Assembly: GCA_003963075.1 (NCBI GenBank)
Contig: RXJV01000012.1
Coordinates: forward strand, 1-64,000
Direction: 5' to 3'
Length of the DNA stretch: 64,000 bases
Source: Burkholderiales bacterium
GTDB taxonomy: Bacteria > Pseudomonadota > Gammaproteobacteria > Burkholderiales > Burkholderiaceae_C
Of this stretch, positions 42,863 through 51,242 are shown piece by piece (the stretch's first letter is position 1; every line of letters starts with the position of its first letter). Under the pieces are notes generated by a model. The model saw only the letters and a program-made list of their open reading frames with translations, ran no database searches and was not told where the DNA came from. Both the position numbers and the translations under genes were made by a program.

Positions 42863-43294
42863 TCAGCGCGTGGCGGCCTGGCGCACCTTGTCGAGATAGG
42901 CGTGACCGTCGGGCGGCAGCCCGCTGCGCTGCGAGGCCCAGATCATCTCGCCCAGCGCCTCCATCGCAGTGTGGTGCGCTTCATGCCGCGAGTTGCGCTT
43001 GGCGGCCAGCAGGTCGATGGCCTGGCGGATGCCGGCCGGCTGGTCGATCGCATGCTGCTCGGTGATCGTCAGGTGCATGGACAGGTGCAGGAAGGGGTTG
43101 GTGCGGCCTTCCTCGACCGTGTAGACCTTCTCCAGTGCGCCGGCCTCGTCGGCCAGGTCGACGTGGTACTCCGGGTGCTCGGCGATCCAGTCGGCGGCCA
43201 GGGCCTCCATCGGAATCAGCGGCGCGCCCTCGCGCCATTTGCGGTAGGTGGCGCAGAAGAAGCGCCGGACTTCGAGCTGGGAGGGGGCGAACAT
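42863..43294 (-). CDS. DUF1841 family protein
   Basis: The 143-residue protein matches the betaproteobacterial DUF1841 family: MFAPSQLEVRRFFCATYRKW near the start, then NPFLHLSMHLTITEQHAIDQ and the histidine-rich RHEAHHTAMEALGEMIW. The conserved histidines suggest metal binding, but no function is known to me. It is convergent with flgN and lies 28 bases after the adenylosuccinate-synthetase paralogue on the same strand. Confidence 0.85.
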   Translation of the reverse strand: MFAPSQLEVRRFFCATYRKWREGAPLIPMEALAADWIAEHPEYHVDLADEAGALEKVYTVEEGRTNPFLHLSMHLTITEQHAIDQPAGIRQAIDLLAAKRNSRHEAHHTAMEALGEMIWASQRSGLPPDGHAYLDKVRQAATR

Positions 43295-43322
43295 GGGCCG
43301 ATTGTCACCAGCTCAGCCGGGT

Positions 43323-44612
43323 TCAGTTGCGGACCGTGGCGTGCCACTGCACGTCATCGGGCCGCGGGCTGTCGGACGTGGCGGCGATCGGGGCGCCTGC
43401 GGTGTGCGCCAGCCGCGCCAGCAGCGCCTCGCCATCCAGGATACCGGCTGCGTACTCCGGCCTGACCTGCTGCAACCACGCGGTGCTGTCGTCGGCGGGC
43501 AGCATGCTCGCGGTGTCGCCTGCGGGCGTGCGGTAGCCGTGGCACCAGCGCAGCCCGGCGGGCAGCGCATCGAGGTGGCTCACCAGCAGGCCGTCCAGTG
43601 GCCCGCAGGCGGCCACGGCATGGCGCAGCAGCACGGCATCCGGGTGGCCGCGCCGGAAGCGCCCCTGAAAGCCGTCGTCGCCGTTGTGCGGCTCGGGCAG
43701 CCCGTCCAGCGCGGCGTCCTGCGTGGGGAAGGGGCCCGCGCCATGGCGGGTGAGGTAGCTGCGCAGGATGCCGTAGCGGCGCAGCGGCGTGCGCAGGCCG
43801 AGGTCCGCCAGCACTGCCTCGGCGGCCGCGGGCGTGGTGCGGCTCCAGGTGGTGTGAGGGTGGAAGCCGTGTTCTTCGTCCAGCAGCACGCCCTGTGCGC
43901 CTTCGAACACCACGCCACCCGGCGCGGCCAGCTGTGCGGCCAGCGCATCCGGCGTGCAGCCAGGGGCCCGGCGCCAGGCGTCGTGGGCCAGCGCGAGCCA
44001 CGGCTCGGCCAGCTCGGGCCGCTGCAGCGTGGCCCAGTCGTCGGCCGCTGCGGCGCTGGGCGCGTGCGGCCACTGGGCTTGCAGCCACGCCTGCTGCTCG
44101 CGCAGCCGTGCCATCGCGCGGGCGGGGTGGGCGAGGTCGGCGTAGTGCAGGGTCAGGCCGGGCTGAGCCAGCGAGAGCGCCACGGTCTCGCCGAAGCCCA
44201 CGCCGCAGCTGCCGTGGGCCGCGGTGCCGCGCGCATGTTCACGCAGGCGGCCGGCGGCCTGCAGGTAGGGCGTGGTCACGCGGCAGCGGGCATCGATCCG
44301 CAGCCGCTGCCAGGCGTCGGCCACGCCCACGCGCGCCAGCGCGGCGGCCTCGTGGTGCAGTGCGCCGGGGTGGACCACGACCGGCGCGGCCAGCACCGTG
44401 ACGACCCCGGGCACGAAGCTGCCGGCGCCCCATTGCGAGAACGTGTGGTGCCGGCCGTCGGGCAGCACCACGTTGTGGCCGGCCTGGGCGCCGCCGTTGA
44501 AGCGCACGACGGTGTGCGCGCCGTGGCTGCGCACCCAGGCGTCGGTGAACCGGCCCTTGCCGGCGTCGCCAAAGCCGAGGTCGACCAGCGCGACGCAGGC
44601 CGGGGCCGCCAC
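43323..44612 (-). CDS. Divergent adenylosuccinate-synthetase (PurA-like) paralogue
   Basis: The 429-residue protein keeps the PurA fold and part of its active site: P-loop-like FGDAGKGRFTD (catalytic aspartate D16 and K19), NGGAQAGHN (catalytic H46), FEGAQGVLLDEEHG and THE segment LTRHGAGPFPT. It departs from PurA at the guanine-nucleotide and substrate loops: GRRRRTGW becomes QGRFRRGHPD, TKLD becomes SHLD, and STGPDR is unrecognisable. It probably joins an amino acid to an unusual nucleotide, or uses another NTP. The start is a GTG at 44610-44612, 4 bases after the VWA gene stop. It is unlikely to be the housekeeping purA. Confidence 0.75.
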   Translation of the reverse strand: MAAPACVALVDLGFGDAGKGRFTDAWVRSHGAHTVVRFNGGAQAGHNVVLPDGRHHTFSQWGAGSFVPGVVTVLAAPVVVHPGALHHEAAALARVGVADAWQRLRIDARCRVTTPYLQAAGRLREHARGTAAHGSCGVGFGETVALSLAQPGLTLHYADLAHPARAMARLREQQAWLQAQWPHAPSAAAADDWATLQRPELAEPWLALAHDAWRRAPGCTPDALAAQLAAPGGVVFEGAQGVLLDEEHGFHPHTTWSRTTPAAAEAVLADLGLRTPLRRYGILRSYLTRHGAGPFPTQDAALDGLPEPHNGDDGFQGRFRRGHPDAVLLRHAVAACGPLDGLLVSHLDALPAGLRWCHGYRTPAGDTASMLPADDSTAWLQQVRPEYAAGILDGEALLARLAHTAGAPIAATSDSPRPDDVQWHATVRN

Positions 44613-44616
44613 GCCT

Positions 44617-45600
44617 TCAGCCCAACAGCCGCTTCCACCAGCCGCCGGTGGCAGGGGCGGCTGCGGGCCGCGCACCCGGGCGCAGCGGCAGGCCCACCGT
44701 ACCGGGGCGCAGCAGCGCGGCATAGGGCCGCAGGGCGCGCACGACGGCGCTGACACGGTCGCGTGCCAGGCCCTGGCTGGCCAGCGCGCGGGCCGCGGCG
44801 TCCAGGTCGGGCAGGCGGCCTTCGGTCAGGCCCACCAGGGCGGCCGCCACATAGCAGGTGTCGTCGGGCGACTCCATGCAGATCACATGGTCGCCGAGCA
44901 GGTCGCGCCAGCGGTCCTCGCAGCGCTGGCGGCGCTGCAGGTCGGGGATCAGGAAGAACAGGTGGTACTGCTCGGCCGCGGCGGCGATGGCCTCCTCGAC
45001 CGGGATGTCCTCGTCAAGCTGGTCGCCCAGCAGCGTGCCCACCTGGTGGCGCGAGACGGCGGGGTAGGGCAGCTCGTCCCCGGTCATGAACATGTAGCCC
45101 CGGTGGCGGCGTTGGACCCAGCTGTCGGTGTCGGTGTGGCGCGCCAGCAGGTAGAACGCCAGCTCGTAGCTTTCCGAGCCGGTGCCGCCCCCGCCGCCCT
45201 CCAGGTAGCTCCAGGTCAGCCACTGGTCGATGAGCTCGGCGGTGGACTCGAACTGGCCCACCTGCAGCGGCGCGTTGTCGGAGGTGGCGTCGCCGATGGC
45301 CATGAACAGCACCTGCGGATCCTCGATCGCGCAGGCCTGCAGCAGGCGCATGAACTGCGGCAGGTCGCGCTGCGCCAGCGCGCGCGGGATGTCGCCCATC
45401 GAGCCGGTCACGTCGAGGGCGAACGCGATGGGCAGGGCGCGGGGGTGGTCGGCGCTGTCGCGCGACTCGCGCACGGTCAGGCCGCGCGGGTTCATCAGCG
45501 GGTGGCAGCCGGTCTGGCGGAACACCTCCTCCGCGCTGAGGCTGGCGCGGTCGGCCAGCAGCGCCGCGTGCGCGGCGTGTGAGTAGTTGCCGTGTCCCAT
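44617..45600 (-). CDS. Von Willebrand factor A (VWA) domain protein
   Basis: The 327-residue soluble protein contains a VWA domain with a metal-ion adhesion site: DVTGS (residues 63-67, variant of DxSxS), GGGGGTGSESYE and FMTGDE. N-terminal 55 residues and a proline/arginine-rich C-terminal tail flank it. VWA proteins with kinases are known from tellurite-type stress systems (TerY-P triad). GGGAG precedes the ATG. It lies between the kinase-like gene (23 bases) and the PurA paralogue. Confidence 0.82.
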   Translation of the reverse strand: MGHGNYSHAAHAALLADRASLSAEEVFRQTGCHPLMNPRGLTVRESRDSADHPRALPIAFALDVTGSMGDIPRALAQRDLPQFMRLLQACAIEDPQVLFMAIGDATSDNAPLQVGQFESTAELIDQWLTWSYLEGGGGGTGSESYELAFYLLARHTDTDSWVQRRHRGYMFMTGDELPYPAVSRHQVGTLLGDQLDEDIPVEEAIAAAAEQYHLFFLIPDLQRRQRCEDRWRDLLGDHVICMESPDDTCYVAAALVGLTEGRLPDLDAAARALASQGLARDRVSAVVRALRPYAALLRPGTVGLPLRPGARPAAAPATGGWWKRLLG

Positions 45601-45623
45601 GTGGGGTCTCCCTGGATGTGTGG

Positions 45624-46562
45624 TCAGGCGCGCTGCGGGTCGAAGGGCACGAAGCGCGGCGGGCCGAAGTCTGCCAGCGCCGCGGCGCTGAGCTGGCGGA
45701 TCAGGCCGGCGGCGCCCTCGTGGCGGCACCGGTCTCGGTCCTCGCTGGCGCGCCGCAGCAGCGCGGCCAGCGCTGGCGGGCAGCGCGCAGGCAGGGCCGG
45801 GGCGCTGTCGCCCGGGCCCGCCAGGGCGGCGCGCACCGCCCAGGCGGACTGCTGCAGGTCCACGGCCGGGTCGCCGTGGCGGGTGGCGCGCCCCCAGCCG
45901 ACGAGGTGCACGCCATGGTCCGTCGGGTGGATCAGCCAGTGCTCTGGCCGCAAGTCACCGTGGCACCAGCCGTGGCCGTGCAGGTACTCCAGCAGCTCCA
46001 GCACGCGGCGCCACAGCCAGACCGCATGCCGCGGGTCGGCCAGCCCCTCGGGGCGCAGCGCCAGCACGTCGGCCAGGCTGCCCCAAAAGCCAGGCCAGGC
46101 GCGCATCGCCAGGGCGGTGCCGGAGGCCGTGGCGCCCTGCGCCAGCAGTTGCGGCAGGCGCAGCGAGAAGTAGGCGCTGCCCGGGCCGCTCAGGCGCTGG
46201 ATCTCCCGCAGCGTGTCGGCCTCGCGGGCCAGCCGGTCGGCCGCCTCGGCGGGCGCGCGCTTGATCACGCCACGCAGCCGGCCCGTGCCCTGGCGTTCGG
46301 CGAGCCAGGCCTCGGCGCGCTCGCCCTGGCCGAGCGGCGCCAGCAGCCGGTAGGTGCTGCCGGCCAGGCGCACCACGTCATCGCCCTGCAGCGGCGGATG
46401 GGCGCGCGCCCAGGCCGCGCGGAACGTGGCCCGCTCCACCCAGCGGGTGTTCAGCGTGACCTGGGCCTGGCAGTAGCTGCAGGTCACCGCGCGCCACAGC
46501 GCCTGCCGCGGCAGGCTGCCGCCGCATTGCGGGCAGCTGGGGCTGCTGAAGGCCGCGCTCAT
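45624..46562 (-). CDS. Zinc-ribbon protein with divergent protein-kinase domain
   Basis: The 312-residue protein starts with a zinc ribbon (cysteines 10, 13, 28, 31) followed by a kinase-like domain. Glycine loop LGQGERAEAW, lysine K101 and helix-C glutamate E114 are present. The catalytic loop is HGDLRPEHW (residues 201-209): the aspartate is kept, but the usual asparagine is histidine. DFG is replaced by GWG (222-224). It may be a pseudokinase or an atypical kinase. Its ATG overlaps the SIR2 stop by ATGA. A longer open frame upstream is a shadow of the SIR2 gene. Confidence 0.78.
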   Translation of the reverse strand: MSAAFSSPSCPQCGGSLPRQALWRAVTCSYCQAQVTLNTRWVERATFRAAWARAHPPLQGDDVVRLAGSTYRLLAPLGQGERAEAWLAERQGTGRLRGVIKRAPAEAADRLAREADTLREIQRLSGPGSAYFSLRLPQLLAQGATASGTALAMRAWPGFWGSLADVLALRPEGLADPRHAVWLWRRVLELLEYLHGHGWCHGDLRPEHWLIHPTDHGVHLVGWGRATRHGDPAVDLQQSAWAVRAALAGPGDSAPALPARCPPALAALLRRASEDRDRCRHEGAAGLIRQLSAAALADFGPPRFVPFDPQRA

Positions 46563-47386
46563 GCCAGCCGCTCCGCGAGCGCGGTCAGCGCCGCCAGCGC
46601 CCCGGCGCCCAGGCCCACGCCGAACGCCGGCGCGACGGCCGGCTCGCGCAGGTTGATGCGCACGATCTGCCCACGGTGGGTGGCGATGACGAGCTGGCTG
46701 AAATGGCGCACCGAGGGCACGGCCGTGCCCGCACCGATTTCCACCACGACCGGCCGCTCTGCGCGTGCCAGCCAGGTGGACAGCCGCGTTGCCTGGGCCT
46801 GGTAGCGCTCGCCCGCCCAGCCCCAGTCGCCGAACATCAGCAGGTTGGGCCGGGCCAGGCCGCCGCAGCCGGGGCAGGCCGGCAGCGGGCCGCGCCAGCG
46901 GCAAGCGGCATCATCGACCTCGGGCTGCAGCGCGTCGGCCGGCCACGGCGCCTGGCCGCAGCCGCGCAGGCATTGCAGCCAGTGCAGCGAGCCGTGGCAT
47001 TCGTGCAGCGGCAGGTCGTTGAACCCGGCGCGCTGGAACTGCCCGTCGACATTGCTGGTGAACACGGCGCCGCCGTGCACCTTCCGGTCCGCCCATTGCC
47101 GCAGCAGCGCAAAGCCGGCATGCGGCACGGTGCGCCGGTACAGCGCCAGCCGGTGGCCGTAGAAGCCCCAGGCGAGTTCGGGGTCGCGCTCGAAGGTGAG
47201 CGGCGAGGCCACGGTCGTGAAGTCCAATCCCGCCCGCCCCAGGGCCGGGTAGGCGCGCCAGAAGCCCTCGCGGCCGCGGAAGTCTGGCAGGCCGGAGTCC
47301 ACGCCCAGGCCGGCGCCGGCAGCGATCACGAGGGCATCGGCCTGGGCGATGAGTTCGGCCGCGGTGTCGAGGCCCTGCGGGTTCAT
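46559..47386 (-). CDS. SIR2-family NAD-dependent deacylase
   Basis: The 275-residue sirtuin has GAGLGVDSGLPDFRG (24-38), TSNVDG (110-115), the catalytic H131 in HECHGSLH, and a structural zinc site (C139, C143, C171, C174). NAD-site segment GAGTAVPSVRHF follows. It should remove acyl groups from lysine or transfer ADP-ribose using NAD+. It is single-domain and soluble. ATGA overlaps join it to the Kef antiporter gene upstream and the kinase-like gene downstream, so it is translated as part of one unit. Confidence 0.88.
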   Translation of the reverse strand: MNPQGLDTAAELIAQADALVIAAGAGLGVDSGLPDFRGREGFWRAYPALGRAGLDFTTVASPLTFERDPELAWGFYGHRLALYRRTVPHAGFALLRQWADRKVHGGAVFTSNVDGQFQRAGFNDLPLHECHGSLHWLQCLRGCGQAPWPADALQPEVDDAACRWRGPLPACPGCGGLARPNLLMFGDWGWAGERYQAQATRLSTWLARAERPVVVEIGAGTAVPSVRHFSQLVIATHRGQIVRINLREPAVAPAFGVGLGAGALAALTALAERLA

Positions 47387-49230
47387 GGCGCGGGGTCGGC
47401 GGGCGGCTTGTCCCAGCCGGCGCGCTGCGCCTTGCGGTGATGCTCCTCGGCCGCGCGCTCCGCGGCGATGAGCTGGTCGAACTGCTGCAGGCCGAGCTTG
47501 GCGGCGGCGATCAGCGCGCTCTCGTCGCGCCGCAGCGGCACCATCTGTTCCATCAGCTCCAGGTTGTGGCGCTTGAAGCGCAGGGCCTGGCGGCGCGCCG
47601 CATGGGGCTCCATGCCGGTCAGCTCCAGCACGCTGCGCGCACTCAGCAGGGCCGACTCGAAGGTCTCGCGCTCCACATGCGTGATGCCCAGCTCCCGCAG
47701 CCGGTAGTAGTGCTGCACATTGCGCGCCCGCGCCACGATGGCGAGCTGCGGGAAGTGCTCGCGCGCCAGCTCGGCCAGCTCCAGGCTTTGGGCCATGTCG
47801 TCGATGGCAATGACCAGTACCCGCGCGGTGGCGGCGCCGGCGCTCTTGAGCAGGTCCAGCCGGGTGGCGTCGCCGTAGTACACCGTCCAGCCGAAGCGGC
47901 GCAGGCTCTCGATGGCCTCGGCGTCCTGGTCGAGCACGGTGGCCTGCAGGCCGTTGGCGCGCAGCAGCCGGCCAACGACCTGGCCATAGCGGCCGCTGCC
48001 GGCAATGATGATGGGTGCCGGCGGCGGCGGTACCTCGTTGCGTTTCTTGGTGGCGCCAATGCGCGCGAGCTTGCGCGACATCAGCCGGTCGCCGCCGTTG
48101 AGCAGCAACGGTGTCAGCGCCAGCGACAGCGCCACCGCCGCCACCAGGGCCGAGTTCTGCGCCGCGTTGATCATGCCCTCGCCCTGTGCAAGCTGGAACA
48201 CGACGAAGCCGAACTCGCCGCCCTGGGCCAGCAGGATGACGAAGGCCGGCCGCTCGACCAGCGGGATCTTCATCCAGGTGGCCATGGCCACCAGCACCGG
48301 GATCTTGCACAGCAGCAGCGCGGCCAGCAGGGTCAGCACGAAGCCCGGCTGCGCGGCGACGGCATGCAGGTCCAGCCCCATGCCGACCGCGATGAAGAAC
48401 AGGCCGAGCAGCAGGCCCTTGAAGGGCTCCAGGTCGGTCTCCAGCTCGCGGCGGTATTCGCTTTCGGCCAGCAGCACGCCGGCCAGGAAGGCGCCCAGCG
48501 CCATCGACAGGCCCACCGCCTGCATCAGCGCGGCGGTGCCCAGCACCAGCAGCAGGGCCGCGGCGGTGAAGATCTCGGGCGTCTTGCTGCGGGCGATCCA
48601 GCGCAGCGCCGGGCGCAGCAGCAGCCGGCCGCCGAAGATGATGGTGACGATGGCGCCCACCGCCTTGGCCGCCGCCAGCCAGGTGCGGCCGTCGTTGTCG
48701 CCATGCCCGCCGCTGAGTGCCAGCACCGGCACCAGGGCCAGCACCGGGATGGCGGCGATGTCCTGCAGCAGCGCGACCGACAGGATGCTCTCGCCGGCCG
48801 TGGTGCGGCCAAGGTTGCGCTCGGCCAGCACCGCCAGCGCGACCGCCGTGGACGACATCGCCAGCCCGAGGCTGACGACCAGCGACAAACGCCACGGGTG
48901 GCCGGTGGCGATGCCCAGGGCCGTCAACACCGCCGTGCAACCCAGCAGCTGCACGCTGCCCCAGCCGAAGATCGGCCGGCGCATCGCCCACAGCCGCTTG
49001 GGCTCCAGCTCCAGGCCGACGAGGAAGAGCATCAGCACCACGCCGAGCTCGGCCACCTCGGGGATGGCGGTGGACTCCGGGATCAGCCCCAGCACCTCGG
49101 GGCCGATCAGCAGGCCGGCGACGAGGTAGCCGAGGATGGCGCCGAGCCGCAGGTAGCGGGCCAGCGGCACCGCCAGCACCGCCGCCGCGAGGAAGACCAG
49201 GGGCAGTTGCAGCCAGCTGCCGTGGCTCAT
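47383..49230 (-). CDS. Kef-type K+/H+ antiporter with RCK (TrkA-N) domain
   Basis: The 615-residue protein has about 12 hydrophobic segments (residues 1-390) of the CPA2 family (GAILGYLVAGLLIGPEVLGL, AMSSTAVALAVLAERNLG), and a cytoplasmic NAD-binding RCK domain with GSGRYGQVVGRLL (about 420) and YYGDATRLDLL. In E. coli KefB/KefC this domain gates potassium efflux in response to glutathione adducts. The start ATG overlaps the upstream oxidoreductase stop (ATGA). KefB versus KefC cannot be decided. Confidence 0.9.
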   Translation of the reverse strand: MSHGSWLQLPLVFLAAAVLAVPLARYLRLGAILGYLVAGLLIGPEVLGLIPESTAIPEVAELGVVLMLFLVGLELEPKRLWAMRRPIFGWGSVQLLGCTAVLTALGIATGHPWRLSLVVSLGLAMSSTAVALAVLAERNLGRTTAGESILSVALLQDIAAIPVLALVPVLALSGGHGDNDGRTWLAAAKAVGAIVTIIFGGRLLLRPALRWIARSKTPEIFTAAALLLVLGTAALMQAVGLSMALGAFLAGVLLAESEYRRELETDLEPFKGLLLGLFFIAVGMGLDLHAVAAQPGFVLTLLAALLLCKIPVLVAMATWMKIPLVERPAFVILLAQGGEFGFVVFQLAQGEGMINAAQNSALVAAVALSLALTPLLLNGGDRLMSRKLARIGATKKRNEVPPPPAPIIIAGSGRYGQVVGRLLRANGLQATVLDQDAEAIESLRRFGWTVYYGDATRLDLLKSAGAATARVLVIAIDDMAQSLELAELAREHFPQLAIVARARNVQHYYRLRELGITHVERETFESALLSARSVLELTGMEPHAARRQALRFKRHNLELMEQMVPLRRDESALIAAAKLGLQQFDQLIAAERAAEEHHRKAQRAGWDKPPADPAP

Positions 49231-49883
49231 GACGAGGCCCCCGCTTCGAATTCGGTGAAGAGCGGCGGCCGCTCGTCCAGGCCCACGGCCTCCTCGTCGC
49301 CCACTTCGGGCGCGGCGAGGGACTCGCACCAGTCGGGGTAGTGGGCCAGGCGCTTGGCGAACAGCTCGGCATGGGCCTGCACCTCGGCATCGGTCACGCG
49401 GTGGGCGCCGTGCAGGATCTGCGGCGGCAGGTAGTGCATGCCGCAGGTCTTGGCGGACTGCTGGTAGGGCAGCAGGAACTCAGCGATGTCGTGGTGGTTG
49501 TGGCCGCCGGGCGCGTAGGCCTGGGCCGTGCCGCCGGTGGAGGCCACCAGCCAGAAGTCCTTGCCATGCAGCGCCGTGCCGCCGGGGCCGTAGGCCCAGC
49601 CCAGGCGCAGCACCTCGTCGAACCAGAGCTTCTGCAGGGCCGGCATGCTGTACCAGTAGATCGGGTGCAGCAGCACGACCAGCTTGGCCGCCGCCAGCGC
49701 ACGCTGTTCGGCCTCGACATGGATGTGGAAGTCCGGGTAGAGGCGGTAGAGGTCGCGCAGCTCGACGCGGTCCGCCGCGGGGCTCGTGCGCAGCGTGGTG
49801 AGCAGGCTGCGGGTCACGTGCGAGCGGGCGAGGTCCGGGTGGGCGGCGAGGACGAGGATGTCGCGGACGGTACGTTCAGGCAT
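49227..49883 (-). CDS. KefF/KefG-like NAD(P)H quinone oxidoreductase
   Basis: The 218-residue flavodoxin-like flavoprotein begins DILVLAAHPDLARSHVTRSL and has LHPIYWYSMPALQKLWFDEV and the segment GWAYGPGGTALHGK, typical of Kef ancillary proteins that activate the antiporter and may reduce quinones. It is the first gene of the Kef-SIR2-kinase-VWA-PurA-like operon. The divergent MaoC gene starts 51 bases away, so the promoters are in that gap. Confidence 0.9.
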   Translation of the reverse strand: MPERTVRDILVLAAHPDLARSHVTRSLLTTLRTSPAADRVELRDLYRLYPDFHIHVEAEQRALAAAKLVVLLHPIYWYSMPALQKLWFDEVLRLGWAYGPGGTALHGKDFWLVASTGGTAQAYAPGGHNHHDIAEFLLPYQQSAKTCGMHYLPPQILHGAHRVTDAEVQAHAELFAKRLAHYPDWCESLAAPEVGDEEAVGLDERPPLFTEFEAGASS

Positions 49884-49934
49884 GGGCGGCTAGGGTAGCG
49901 TGCCTGGGCGTCAATTCACTCCTCGTCAGCCCCG

Positions 49935-50390
49935 ATGCGCTATTTCGATACCCTTGCCGACCTCGAACGCCTGATCGGCCAGCCCCTGGGCCACAGCGAC
50001 TGGATCACCGTCGACCAGGCCCGCGTGAACGCCTTTGCCGAGGCGACCGAAGACCGCCAGTGGATCCATGTCGACCCCGAGCGGGCGAAGGCCGGCCCGT
50101 TCGGCGGTCCTATCGCCCACGGCTTCCTGACCTTGTCGCTGATCCCTTACTTCTTCGAGACCGGCTTTGCGGTGCGCGAGACCCGCATGGTCGTGAACTA
50201 CGGGCTCAACAAGGTGCGCTTCACGGCGCCGGTGCCGGTGGGCAGCCGGCTGCGCGCGGCCTTCAAGCTGCTGGCGCTGGACGATGTGGCCGGCGGCGCC
50301 AGGCAGCTGACGGTGGAGGTGGCCATCGAGGCCGAGGGCGCCGCCAAGCCGGTCTGCGTGGCGGAGAGCCTGGCGCGGCATTACCGCTGA
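49935..50390 (+). CDS. MaoC-like hydratase
   Basis: The 151-residue single hot-dog domain protein has the MaoC/NodN hydratase-2 pattern: FAEATEDRQWIHVDPERAK with catalytic D and H, FGGPIAHGFLTLSLIP. It would hydrate enoyl-thioesters. It is close to the nodulation-protein-N-like group common in Burkholderiales. The gene is monocistronic, convergent with scpA (9 bases). Confidence 0.9.
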   Translation: MRYFDTLADLERLIGQPLGHSDWITVDQARVNAFAEATEDRQWIHVDPERAKAGPFGGPIAHGFLTLSLIPYFFETGFAVRETRMVVNYGLNKVRFTAPVPVGSRLRAAFKLLALDDVAGGARQLTVEVAIEAEGAAKPVCVAESLARHYR

Positions 50391-50399
50391 GGCCTTGCT

Positions 50400-51242
50400 T
50401 CAGGCCGCGCTGTAGGCCAGCCGCACGTAGATCGGCGCAAACGCCTCGGCCTGGGTGATCTCCAGCAGCCGCTCGCGGGCCAGTTCGAGCATCGCGATGA
50501 AGGTGACGACCAGCACGGCCTGGCCGCGGCTCACGTCGAACAGGTCCTCGAACTCGACGAAGCGCTGGCCCTGCAGCCGGCGCAGCACCAGGCTCATGTG
50601 CTCACGCACCGACAGCTGCTCGCGACTGATCTTGTGGTGCTGGTTGAGCTTGGCGCGCTTGAGGATGTCCAGCCAGGCCTCTCGCAGGTCGTTGGCATTG
50701 ACGTCGGGAAAGGTGGGGGTGAGCGACTGCTCGATGTGCACCTGGGCGCGCAGGAAGTCTCGGCCCAGCACGGGCAGCCGGTCCAGCCGCGCGGCGGCCA
50801 GCTTCATCTGCTCGTACTCCAGCAGCCGGCGCACCAGCTCGGCGCGAGGGTCCTCGGGCTCCTTGCCGTCGTCGGTCTTCTTCGGCGGCAGCAGCATGCG
50901 CGACTTGATCTCGATCAGCATCGCCGCCATCAGCAGGTACTCGCTGGCCAGCTCCAGGTTGTGCTGGCGGATCTGGTCGACGTAGCTCAGGTACTGGCGC
51001 GTGACGTCGGCCAGCGGGATGTCGAGGATGTTGAAGTTCTGCTTGCGGATCAGGTAGAGCAGCAGGTCCAGCGGGCCCTGGAAGGCCTCCAGGAAGACCT
51101 CCAGCGCATCCGGCGGGATGTAGAGGTCCAGCGGCAGCTGGAACAGCGGCTCACCGTACAGGCGAGCGACGGCCACCGTGTCGACCGCTTCGGGCAGATC
51201 CGATTCGACGGGGCTGGCGTCGTCAGCCAGGGCCGGCGTCAC
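50400..51242 (-). CDS. scpA: Segregation and condensation protein A
   Basis: The 280-residue kleisin bridges the SMC heads in the chromosome condensation complex. Signature segments FLEAFQGPLDLLLYLIRKQN with NILDIPLADVTRQYLSYVDQ, and ASEYLLMAAMLIEIKSRMLL are clear. The C-terminal winged helix is recognisable around VTFIAMLELARERLL. Start is GTG (51240-51242), 3 bases after the DUF3460 gene stop. scpB and smc are not in the window. Confidence 0.95.
   Translation of the reverse strand: MTPALADDASPVESDLPEAVDTVAVARLYGEPLFQLPLDLYIPPDALEVFLEAFQGPLDLLLYLIRKQNFNILDIPLADVTRQYLSYVDQIRQHNLELASEYLLMAAMLIEIKSRMLLPPKKTDDGKEPEDPRAELVRRLLEYEQMKLAAARLDRLPVLGRDFLRAQVHIEQSLTPTFPDVNANDLREAWLDILKRAKLNQHHKISREQLSVREHMSLVLRRLQGQRFVEFEDLFDVSRGQAVLVVTFIAMLELARERLLEITQAEAFAPIYVRLAYSAA

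Follow-up and report, generated by a model that had tools for sequence, protein, structure and literature searches.

Do six close-packed genes on one strand of a bacterial contig form a single pathway? This question is raised by the window, a stretch of 64,000 nucleotides from a Burkholderiales bacterium (assembly GCA_003963075.1, contig RXJV01000012.1, positions 1 to 64,000), in which genes for a KefF oxidoreductase, the antiporter KefC, a SIR2 protein, a kinase-like protein with a zinc ribbon (here called KIN), a VWA protein and a paralogue of adenylosuccinate synthetase (PurA) follow one another. An earlier note on this DNA had read them as one pathway that senses redox or electrophile stress and makes or edits a nucleotide-like signal. 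Its description of the locus is accurate: all six are minus-strand genes at the positions it gave, the sequence shows the three ATGA overlaps (49227-49230, 47383-47386 and 46559-46562), and gaps of 23 bases separate KIN from the VWA gene and 4 bases the VWA gene from the GTG start of the PurA-like gene. The step from a close-packed single strand to a single pathway fails, however, as comparison with related genomes reveals that the six genes are two units, with a KIN-VWA-PurA-like cassette inserted between SIR2 and DUF1841 of an older KefF-KefC-(SIR2)-DUF1841 order. The features are as follows.

49227..49883, minus strand: KefF oxidoreductase, a native neighbour outside the cassette (basis: NCBIfam equivalog, relatives)
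47383..49230, minus strand: KefC, a native neighbour outside the cassette (basis: NCBIfam equivalog, relatives)
46559..47386, minus strand: SIR2 gene, native, downstream of KefC and outside the cassette; its stop codon overlaps the KIN start
45624..46562, minus strand: KIN, zinc ribbon (C10, C13, C28, C31) and predicted pseudokinase, the first cassette gene
44617..45600, minus strand: VWA protein with DVTGSM and TGDE motifs like those of a metal ion-dependent adhesion site (MIDAS), the cassette member of highest conservation
43323..~44612, minus strand: PurA-like ligase with a GTG start, an adenylosuccinate synthetase paralogue (basis: Pfam, alignment)
43310..46551, no strand assigned: inserted cassette, approximate extent (blastn breakpoints against the cassette-free relatives L111 and L113)
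42863..43294, minus strand: DUF1841 gene, the native flank on the far side of the insert

A cassette between SIR2 and DUF1841

The native order is clear from the genus. KefF-KefC and DUF1841 stand in a single locus in 17 of 19 genus relatives, the two exceptions being G003, where they are split over contigs, and G010, which has no DUF1841 match; the alternative offered in the earlier note, that Kef and its oxidoreductase are an older, separate unit, is thereby borne out. A match to the window SIR2 is present in six of the 19, in five of them directly after KefC (L111-L115), and the sixth, G001, carries a more distant SIR2 (52%) elsewhere in its genome. The VWA gene was found in none of the 99 relatives of the window genome that were searched. 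When the window region is compared with L111 and L113 by blastn, two blocks are returned, one ending at about 46551 and the other resuming at 43309, with 0 and 2 bases between them in the two relatives. Their cassette site is a short gap from the SIR2 stop to DUF1841, where in the window the KIN start overlaps the SIR2 stop. Because the flanks meet within 0-2 bases in L111 and L113, we read the SIR2/KIN overlap as the insertion junction.

The cassette, in turn, travels without its neighbours in the window. Across 80 related VWA loci, of 5-17 kb each, SIR2, KefF, KefC and DUF1841 give no tblastn match (1e-4). This co-occurrence count had been named beforehand as the test of a module of SIR2, kinase, VWA and PurA, and the four-gene module does not survive it, SIR2 and Kef alike being near none of the 80 loci; what stands of that proposal is the KIN-VWA-PurA core, which co-occurs almost always, and SIR2 goes with the Kef side. 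The breakpoints together with these absences lead us to reject both the four-gene and the six-gene module. A redox or electrophile pathway that includes Kef and SIR2 could point to the single strand and the three ATGA overlaps, which make one transcript possible in the window, but as a conserved system it is refuted by the same two lines of evidence, and we regard it as very improbable. The reverse history, in which all these relatives lost the cassette, is possible and fits poorly, because the cassette genes sit elsewhere in other genera, without the four Kef-side genes in the 80 VWA loci.

The native genes themselves are readily assigned. KefF (254 versus 210 bits) and KefC (808 versus 752 bits) pass their NCBIfam equivalog cut-offs, which identifies a glutathione-gated Kef system in the window, as native neighbours only, and the SIR2 gene matches PF02146 with 64 bits against a cut-off of 24. 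Foreign composition as a mark of the insert was considered and rejected, as G+C (78% in KIN, 73% in the VWA gene and 76% in the PurA-like gene) is close to the 69-74% of the flanking genes, and G+C at third codon positions is similar; these values are compatible with an old insertion or with a donor whose G+C was similar. The same spot between KefC/SIR2 and DUF1841 is filled by other genes in the genus relatives G017, G009 and G016, and is an insertion-prone spot. The gap contents in three genus relatives (L114 6751-10878, L118 3270-4508 and L127 5919-7270) include a protein kinase gene and a HipA-like gene, both confirmed by Pfam, and PEP-CTERM-like genes recognized by eye.

The VWA-PurA pair in bacteria and phages

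How constant is the cassette where it does occur? Searching a species-genome collection with the VWA protein brought up 87 relatives, and the 80 most similar to the window VWA were used; the viral collection gave 266, of which again the best 80 were used. To the best 80 bacterial loci we added loci from plasmid records and from genome samples drawn by kinship, along with 83 viral loci; once repeats were removed, 92 bacterial and 83 viral loci were left. L147, L148 and L241 were omitted as repeats of L034, L044 and L043, and L138 and L139 because they lie on the same contigs as L173 and L172, two loci that look alike and are both counted. L153 and L154, which resemble bacterial loci (their VWA proteins are 68 and 67% identical to that of the window), are counted as viral. 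The counts are not independent, as Variovorax accounts for much of the set of 80 loci.

A PurA-like gene lies downstream of the VWA gene, on the same strand and within 3 kb, in 88 of the 92 bacterial and 81 of the 83 viral loci, and within 150 bases in 83/92 and 54/83, respectively. Five of the six misses (three bacterial and two viral) fall within 111 bases of a contig end, leaving L078 as the sole real exception, so that the pair is together in 169 of 170 loci with room for it. Because it is kept in this way across distant bacteria and phages, the VWA-PurA pair most likely does one job. KIN lies upstream of the VWA gene in most bacteria (86/92) and in fewer viral loci (29/83).

The carriers are widespread and sparse. 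Those among the best 80 are Betaproteobacteria, Verrucomicrobia, Chloroflexi, Myxococcales and other deltaproteobacterial metagenome-assembled genomes (MAGs), together with one Acidobacteria and one Fibrobacteria MAG; carriers in Rhodococcus and Alphaproteobacteria come from the plasmid records and genome samples. In the phylum sample 7 of 397 genomes carry the gene (window genome included), as do 3 of 387 in the class of G235, and 6 of 249 (one of them weak: G839, L237, E 5e-5) and 2 of 250 in the order samples, with class, order and phylum samples overlapping. The VWA gene is also present in 206 records of isolated phages, of which 188 are phages of Mycobacterium, 10 of Rhizobium, 6 of Vibrio and 2 of other hosts. 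If the reading favoured below is right, it would offer a hint of function for some 200 isolated-phage genes that are labelled hypothetical or adenylosuccinate synthetase.

The genes around the pair vary. Neighbour genes of the 80 loci were called with a frame-scored gene caller and then clustered. In relatives from Pyxidicoccus and Myxococcus the PurA-like gene is followed by another copy of the VWA gene (L083 11960-12865; L084 8001-8906). In 31 of 80 viral loci (e.g. L178 6556-6924) the gene ahead of VWA encodes a protein of some 122 residues that belongs to no Pfam family, and a cluster with a scanned member above the TROVE (Ro60-like) cut-off lies within 7 kb of the VWA-PurA pair in 9 of 80 (e.g. 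L160 5247-6836). In Rhizobium phage RHph_Y65 (L133 2819-5155), genes for a HAD hydrolase, a phosphoribosyltransferase (PRTase_3, PF15610) and a Nudix protein stand a few genes upstream of the pair; its HAD and PRTase genes bring to mind Ter systems, which have signal genes of these two kinds. The PRTase and Nudix genes were tried as NAD genes and rejected, PF15610 being a ComF-like PRTase. A Pfam search of 70 viral neighbours, from the 25 commonest of 34 families, gave neither an NAD theme nor any other common neighbour theme in phages, the genes being T4-like structural, replication and assorted ones.

The ligase, its VWA partner and KIN

The PurA-like protein is a member of the adenylosuccinate synthetase family (Adenylsucc_synt, PF00709; 185 bits, cut-off 27), with homology over residues 10-375. 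We call it a paralogue because the canonical, housekeeping purA of the window genome is located elsewhere (G000:C108, 591 bits); the ligase has 30% identity to this PurA and misses the NCBIfam adenylosuccinate synthase cut-offs (148 versus 402 bits and 120 versus 396). An alignment of 166 rows (87 bacterial and 79 viral, a few of them near duplicates) was compared with PurA (PDB 1ade, 3hid). The equivalents of the catalytic residues Asp13, Lys16 and His41 are kept in 164 of the 166, the other two being gaps; those of Gln224 and Asp333 are kept as well, as are those of Thr239 and Arg305, and T255 is near-invariant. By its Pfam match and its catalytic Asp13, Lys16 and His41 the ligase belongs to the PurA family. 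It differs in most members at a second set of positions, where Asn38 is replaced by Gln (161/166), Thr129 by Cys (144/166), Thr301 by Gln (162/166) and Lys331 by His or Cys (157/166), and the basic residue at 131 is replaced in most rows; its coupling to a VWA protein is a further difference.

We take Asn38, Thr129, Thr239 and Arg143 to be the contacts of PurA with the 5'-phosphate of inosine monophosphate (IMP), Thr301, Arg303 and Arg305 to be its aspartate contacts, and Lys331 and Asp333 to hold the guanine of GTP. With Asn38, Thr129, residue 131 and Thr301 replaced, the ligase would lack the PurA set for the IMP 5'-phosphate and the amino-acid loop. The residue pattern suggests that the phosphate and amino-acid sites are altered and the activation chemistry kept, with GTP use probably kept too; its dependence on the roles assumed for Asn38, Thr129, Arg143, Thr301, Arg303 and Lys331 counts against this interpretation.

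Could the protein nevertheless be a regulated spare adenylosuccinate synthetase, which would make adenylosuccinate from IMP and raise AMP and ATP for NAD synthesis, with VWA and KIN tuning it? The kept equivalents of Asp13, Lys16, His41, Gln224 and Asp333 are consistent with this idea, as is the finding that the cassette adjoins genes of NAD salvage, an ATP-consuming pathway, in 6 of 80 loci. The family-wide replacement of Asn38, Thr129, basic 131, Thr301 and Lys331 argues in the other direction, as do the score far below the equivalog cut-off and the full purA in the same genome, and we find the proposal doubtful.

The PurZ and PurZ0 enzymes of Z-DNA phages are also PurA paralogues carried by phages, and RefSeq and PHROGs name phage members of the cassette family 2-aminooxy adenylosuccinate synthetase. 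On this basis the cassette might supply 2-aminoadenine precursors for phage DNA. Ser replaces Asp13 in 147 of 147 PurZ sequences from phages (PMC12884076), and since the cassette ligase keeps Asp13, with no Ser in any row, we reject its identity as PurZ. The PurZ model scores 32 bits against a cut-off of 300, and the genes occur in bacterial genomes as well as in phages; synthesis of a PurZ-like modified base is hardly credible here. The same study reports 481 phage PurA homologues, 147 of them assigned to PurZ and other PurA homologues used as the root (PMC12884076), and the cassette ligases are probably among the non-PurZ homologues of that set. If it is indeed a ligase for another substrate, the cassette protein would give the PurA family a second non-canonical branch, next to PurZ. 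RefSeq phage records such as NC_054716.1 bear the 2-aminooxy name though the members keep Asp13.

The VWA protein has no Pfam or NCBIfam match up to E 0.1 and matches phrog_2971 (1e-51). Its model (predicted local distance difference test score, pLDDT, 76.7) finds integrin I-like and VWA domains as best Foldseek matches, with E 3e-4 and a query TM-score of 0.34-0.40 in the first six. These fold matches, together with the conserved DVTGSM and TGDE motifs, place the protein among VWA folds with a DxSxS-like MIDAS motif, without a Pfam VWA match. Identity to the window protein is 53-70% in 33 other members. In gene 251 of Mycobacterium phage Cane17 (L004 3921-5738) the VWA protein has a long insert directly before TGDE, where Hint (18.5 versus 29.7) and intein (16.3 versus 35.8) scores are both below their cut-offs; an intein at this place, if real, would suggest that TGDE is functionally critical.

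KIN has the predicted fold of a kinase, and its bacterial members have lost kinase residues. It passes the APH model of Pfam just above the cut-off (26.1 versus 23.2), stays below that of Pkinase, and gives a confident kinase-fold model (pLDDT 90.4). An active kinase would be expected to keep the aspartates of HRD and DFG, and neither the window KIN nor most bacterial KIN proteins have both: in the window HGD is kept and DFG reads GWG, and of 83 other bacterial rows, 79 have Gly in place of the DFG Asp and 38 retain the HRD Asp, with Lys101 kept in 77 and Glu114 in 78. The bacterial KIN therefore looks like a pseudokinase. Two observations weigh against extending this to the whole family, namely that the DFG Asp is kept in 16 of 21 viral rows and that the KIN of Cane17 lies above the Pkinase cut-off, and because of these the phage forms may be active kinases. 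The four-cysteine N-terminal ribbon is present in 78 of the 83 bacterial rows; an HPD-type motif, recognized by eye, takes its place in some phages and in Rhodococcus and Alphaproteobacteria. Of five KIN proteins scanned, three match DnaJ with scores short of the 27.8 cut-off (26.8, 22.1 and 16.1), and L132 KIN has none at E 0.01, so a J-domain is not confirmed and we describe these proteins as J-like only.

A VWA protein next to a zinc-ribbon kinase-fold protein recalls the TerY-P triad, which consists of a VWA protein, a PP2C phosphatase and a kinase with a zinc ribbon (PMC11090510). It is conceivable that the cassette is a stress or anti-phage switch of this kind, in which VWA and the kinase-like protein sense a signal and the PurA-like protein makes a nucleotide messenger. 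The patchy distribution (7/397 in the phylum sample) would suit such a role, as would the match of KIN to PD-T4-6 kinases, the best hit of a PADLOC search with the six window proteins (E 3e-9, 35 bits). However, KIN is the only protein matched, with nothing for the VWA or the PurA-like protein, and a known anti-phage defence system is accordingly rejected. No PP2C phosphatase is found among nine window proteins scanned (42863 to 51242) or among the 25 commonest of 113 and of 34 neighbour families; the cassette has the PurA-like ligase instead, its ribbon is N-terminal where that of TerY-P is C-terminal, and the kinase residues are lost in most bacteria. Phages themselves often carry cassette genes, and the insertion spot holds HipA-like, kinase or other genes in three relatives. 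We therefore consider a TerY-P-like switch improbable, and the comparison with tellurite-type (Ter) systems drawn in the earlier note does not extend to membership, given the PP2C search and the lost DFG Asp.

NrtR, NAD salvage genes and a possible function

In several proteobacterial lineages an NrtR_WHD regulator is divergent from, or leads, the cassette. A match to an NrtR-like hidden Markov model is present in 21 of the 92 bacterial loci, and nine of nine proteobacterial examples scanned (L005, L018, L134, L149, L150, L151, L152, L239 and L240) pass the NrtR_WHD cut-off. We also searched for NrtR_WHD in the window genome and in ten carriers of the cassette or the dyad from the kinship samples, with G839 outside the test. 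Six of the ten have NrtR, all with a copy within about 1 kb of the VWA gene (G142, G235, G304, G334, G856 and G907, in five genera, G142 and G304 sharing one), and G415, G477, G564 and G1139 gave no match. Seven further genomes picked for a nearby NrtR hold one copy each, except G489 with three.

The second line of evidence is the company of NAD genes. In six of the 80 loci (L005, L006, L018, L028, L031 and L035) pncB-nadE-nadM adjoin the cassette, four with a PncA-like gene, and in four the salvage genes run straight into KIN. In L005 and L035 the NAD genes are divergent, with nrtR between them and KIN; L035 has an SPFH gene there as well, and its KIN match is partial. PncB and NadE are above the NCBIfam cut-offs in both loci scanned (L018 and L005). 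L028 and L031, which have NrtR elsewhere in the genome, still keep the cassette behind NAD genes. The motif ACTAAGT occurs 13 times (both strands) in 1.23 Mb of the 80 loci, and 8 of these occurrences fall in 12 upstream regions that total 3.85 kb, where 7 regions have it; GCAACTAA is found in 5 of the 12.

Several points weigh against a general NAD link. NrtR gives no match in 71 of the 92 bacterial and all 83 viral loci, and none in the window genome; of 29 carriers tested out of the 69 genome loci without NrtR nearby, 14 have it elsewhere in the genome and 15 have none. Two of the 21 matches are Nudix genes of Rhodococcus, one of which, when scanned (L132), is below NrtR_WHD (18.8 versus 27). 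The NadM of L018 is below its NCBIfam cut-off (321.5 versus 409), with the Pfam Nudix and cytidylyltransferase cut-offs passed, and the PncA-like proteins are below theirs (21.6 versus 174). ACTAAGT was picked after viewing the same upstream regions, and the hosts are related. NAD genes have no tblastn match in 80 viral loci. In M. smegmatis, NrtR is reported to repress NAD genes, with ADP-ribose releasing it from DNA (PMC6800001); NrtR-family proteins can also regulate other things (PMC4666351).

Compared with the NrtR regulon of NAD synthesis, then, the cassette in some lineages has NrtR_WHD, pncB, nadE, nadM and a PncA-like gene beside it, but it encodes no known NAD enzyme itself, most bacterial loci are without NrtR nearby, and the half-site of a putative operator is shared only among related hosts. 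Several proteobacterial lineages support a link of the cassette to NAD status, whereas phages lend it no support and the window genome shows no sign of it. The earlier note had made its NAD connection through the window SIR2, which we reject as it goes with the Kef operon; the connection itself persists in part through NrtR and the NAD salvage genes in other genomes. Likewise the nucleotide-like signal falls as the output of a six-gene pathway, and keeps some force in that the class of the PurA paralogue makes or edits nucleotides.

The KIN-VWA-PurA-like cassette is apparently undescribed and probably has a new enzymatic activity, its parts belonging to known superfamilies. We found no description of the VWA-PurA pair in CC-licensed PMC text, a scope that leaves the absence unproven, and in the same text no paper joins adenylosuccinate (synthetase) with von Willebrand/VWA or with NrtR. 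The term 'adenylosuccin' does not occur in PMC7824862 or PMC7159879.

What, then, might the cassette do? We favour a PurA-fold ligase with a near-constant VWA partner and, usually, a pseudokinase in bacteria, acting on a substrate other than IMP, tied to NAD in some hosts and inserted in the window behind an unrelated Kef-SIR2 operon, a reading we hold to be evenly poised between right and wrong. By analogy with PurA, the ligase would use GTP to activate the 6-oxo group of a purine-type compound and would join an amine or amino acid to it, on a substrate that differs from IMP, which has a free 5'-phosphate. The VWA protein, with its metal site, and the zinc-ribbon or J-like pseudokinase may serve to hold the ligase, to help it fold or to switch it. 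Because expression in some hosts would follow NAD status via NrtR, the turnover of NAD or ADP-ribose is the process to which the product is most likely linked. In the window genome, where NrtR was not found, the cassette would either form the end of a transcript that begins with Kef-SIR2 or have a promoter of its own. A bolder version, which we think rather unlikely, is a new NAD-linked pathway in which the PurA-fold enzyme would act on the 6-oxopurine half of a dinucleotide (deaminated NAD or an ADP-ribose-like compound, for instance) and attach an amino acid or the equivalent of ammonia to it, as a repair or a new signal, with VWA and pseudokinase as scaffold, NrtR as switch in some bacteria, and phages steering the NAD pool of the host. 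For the favoured reading, NrtR and the NAD salvage operons offer a concrete entry point for finding the substrate of the ligase. An SPFH/Band 7 protein is encoded between NrtR and KIN in 6 of the 80 loci (L019, L021, L024, L025, L026 and L035), all of them from Massilia or Janthinobacterium.

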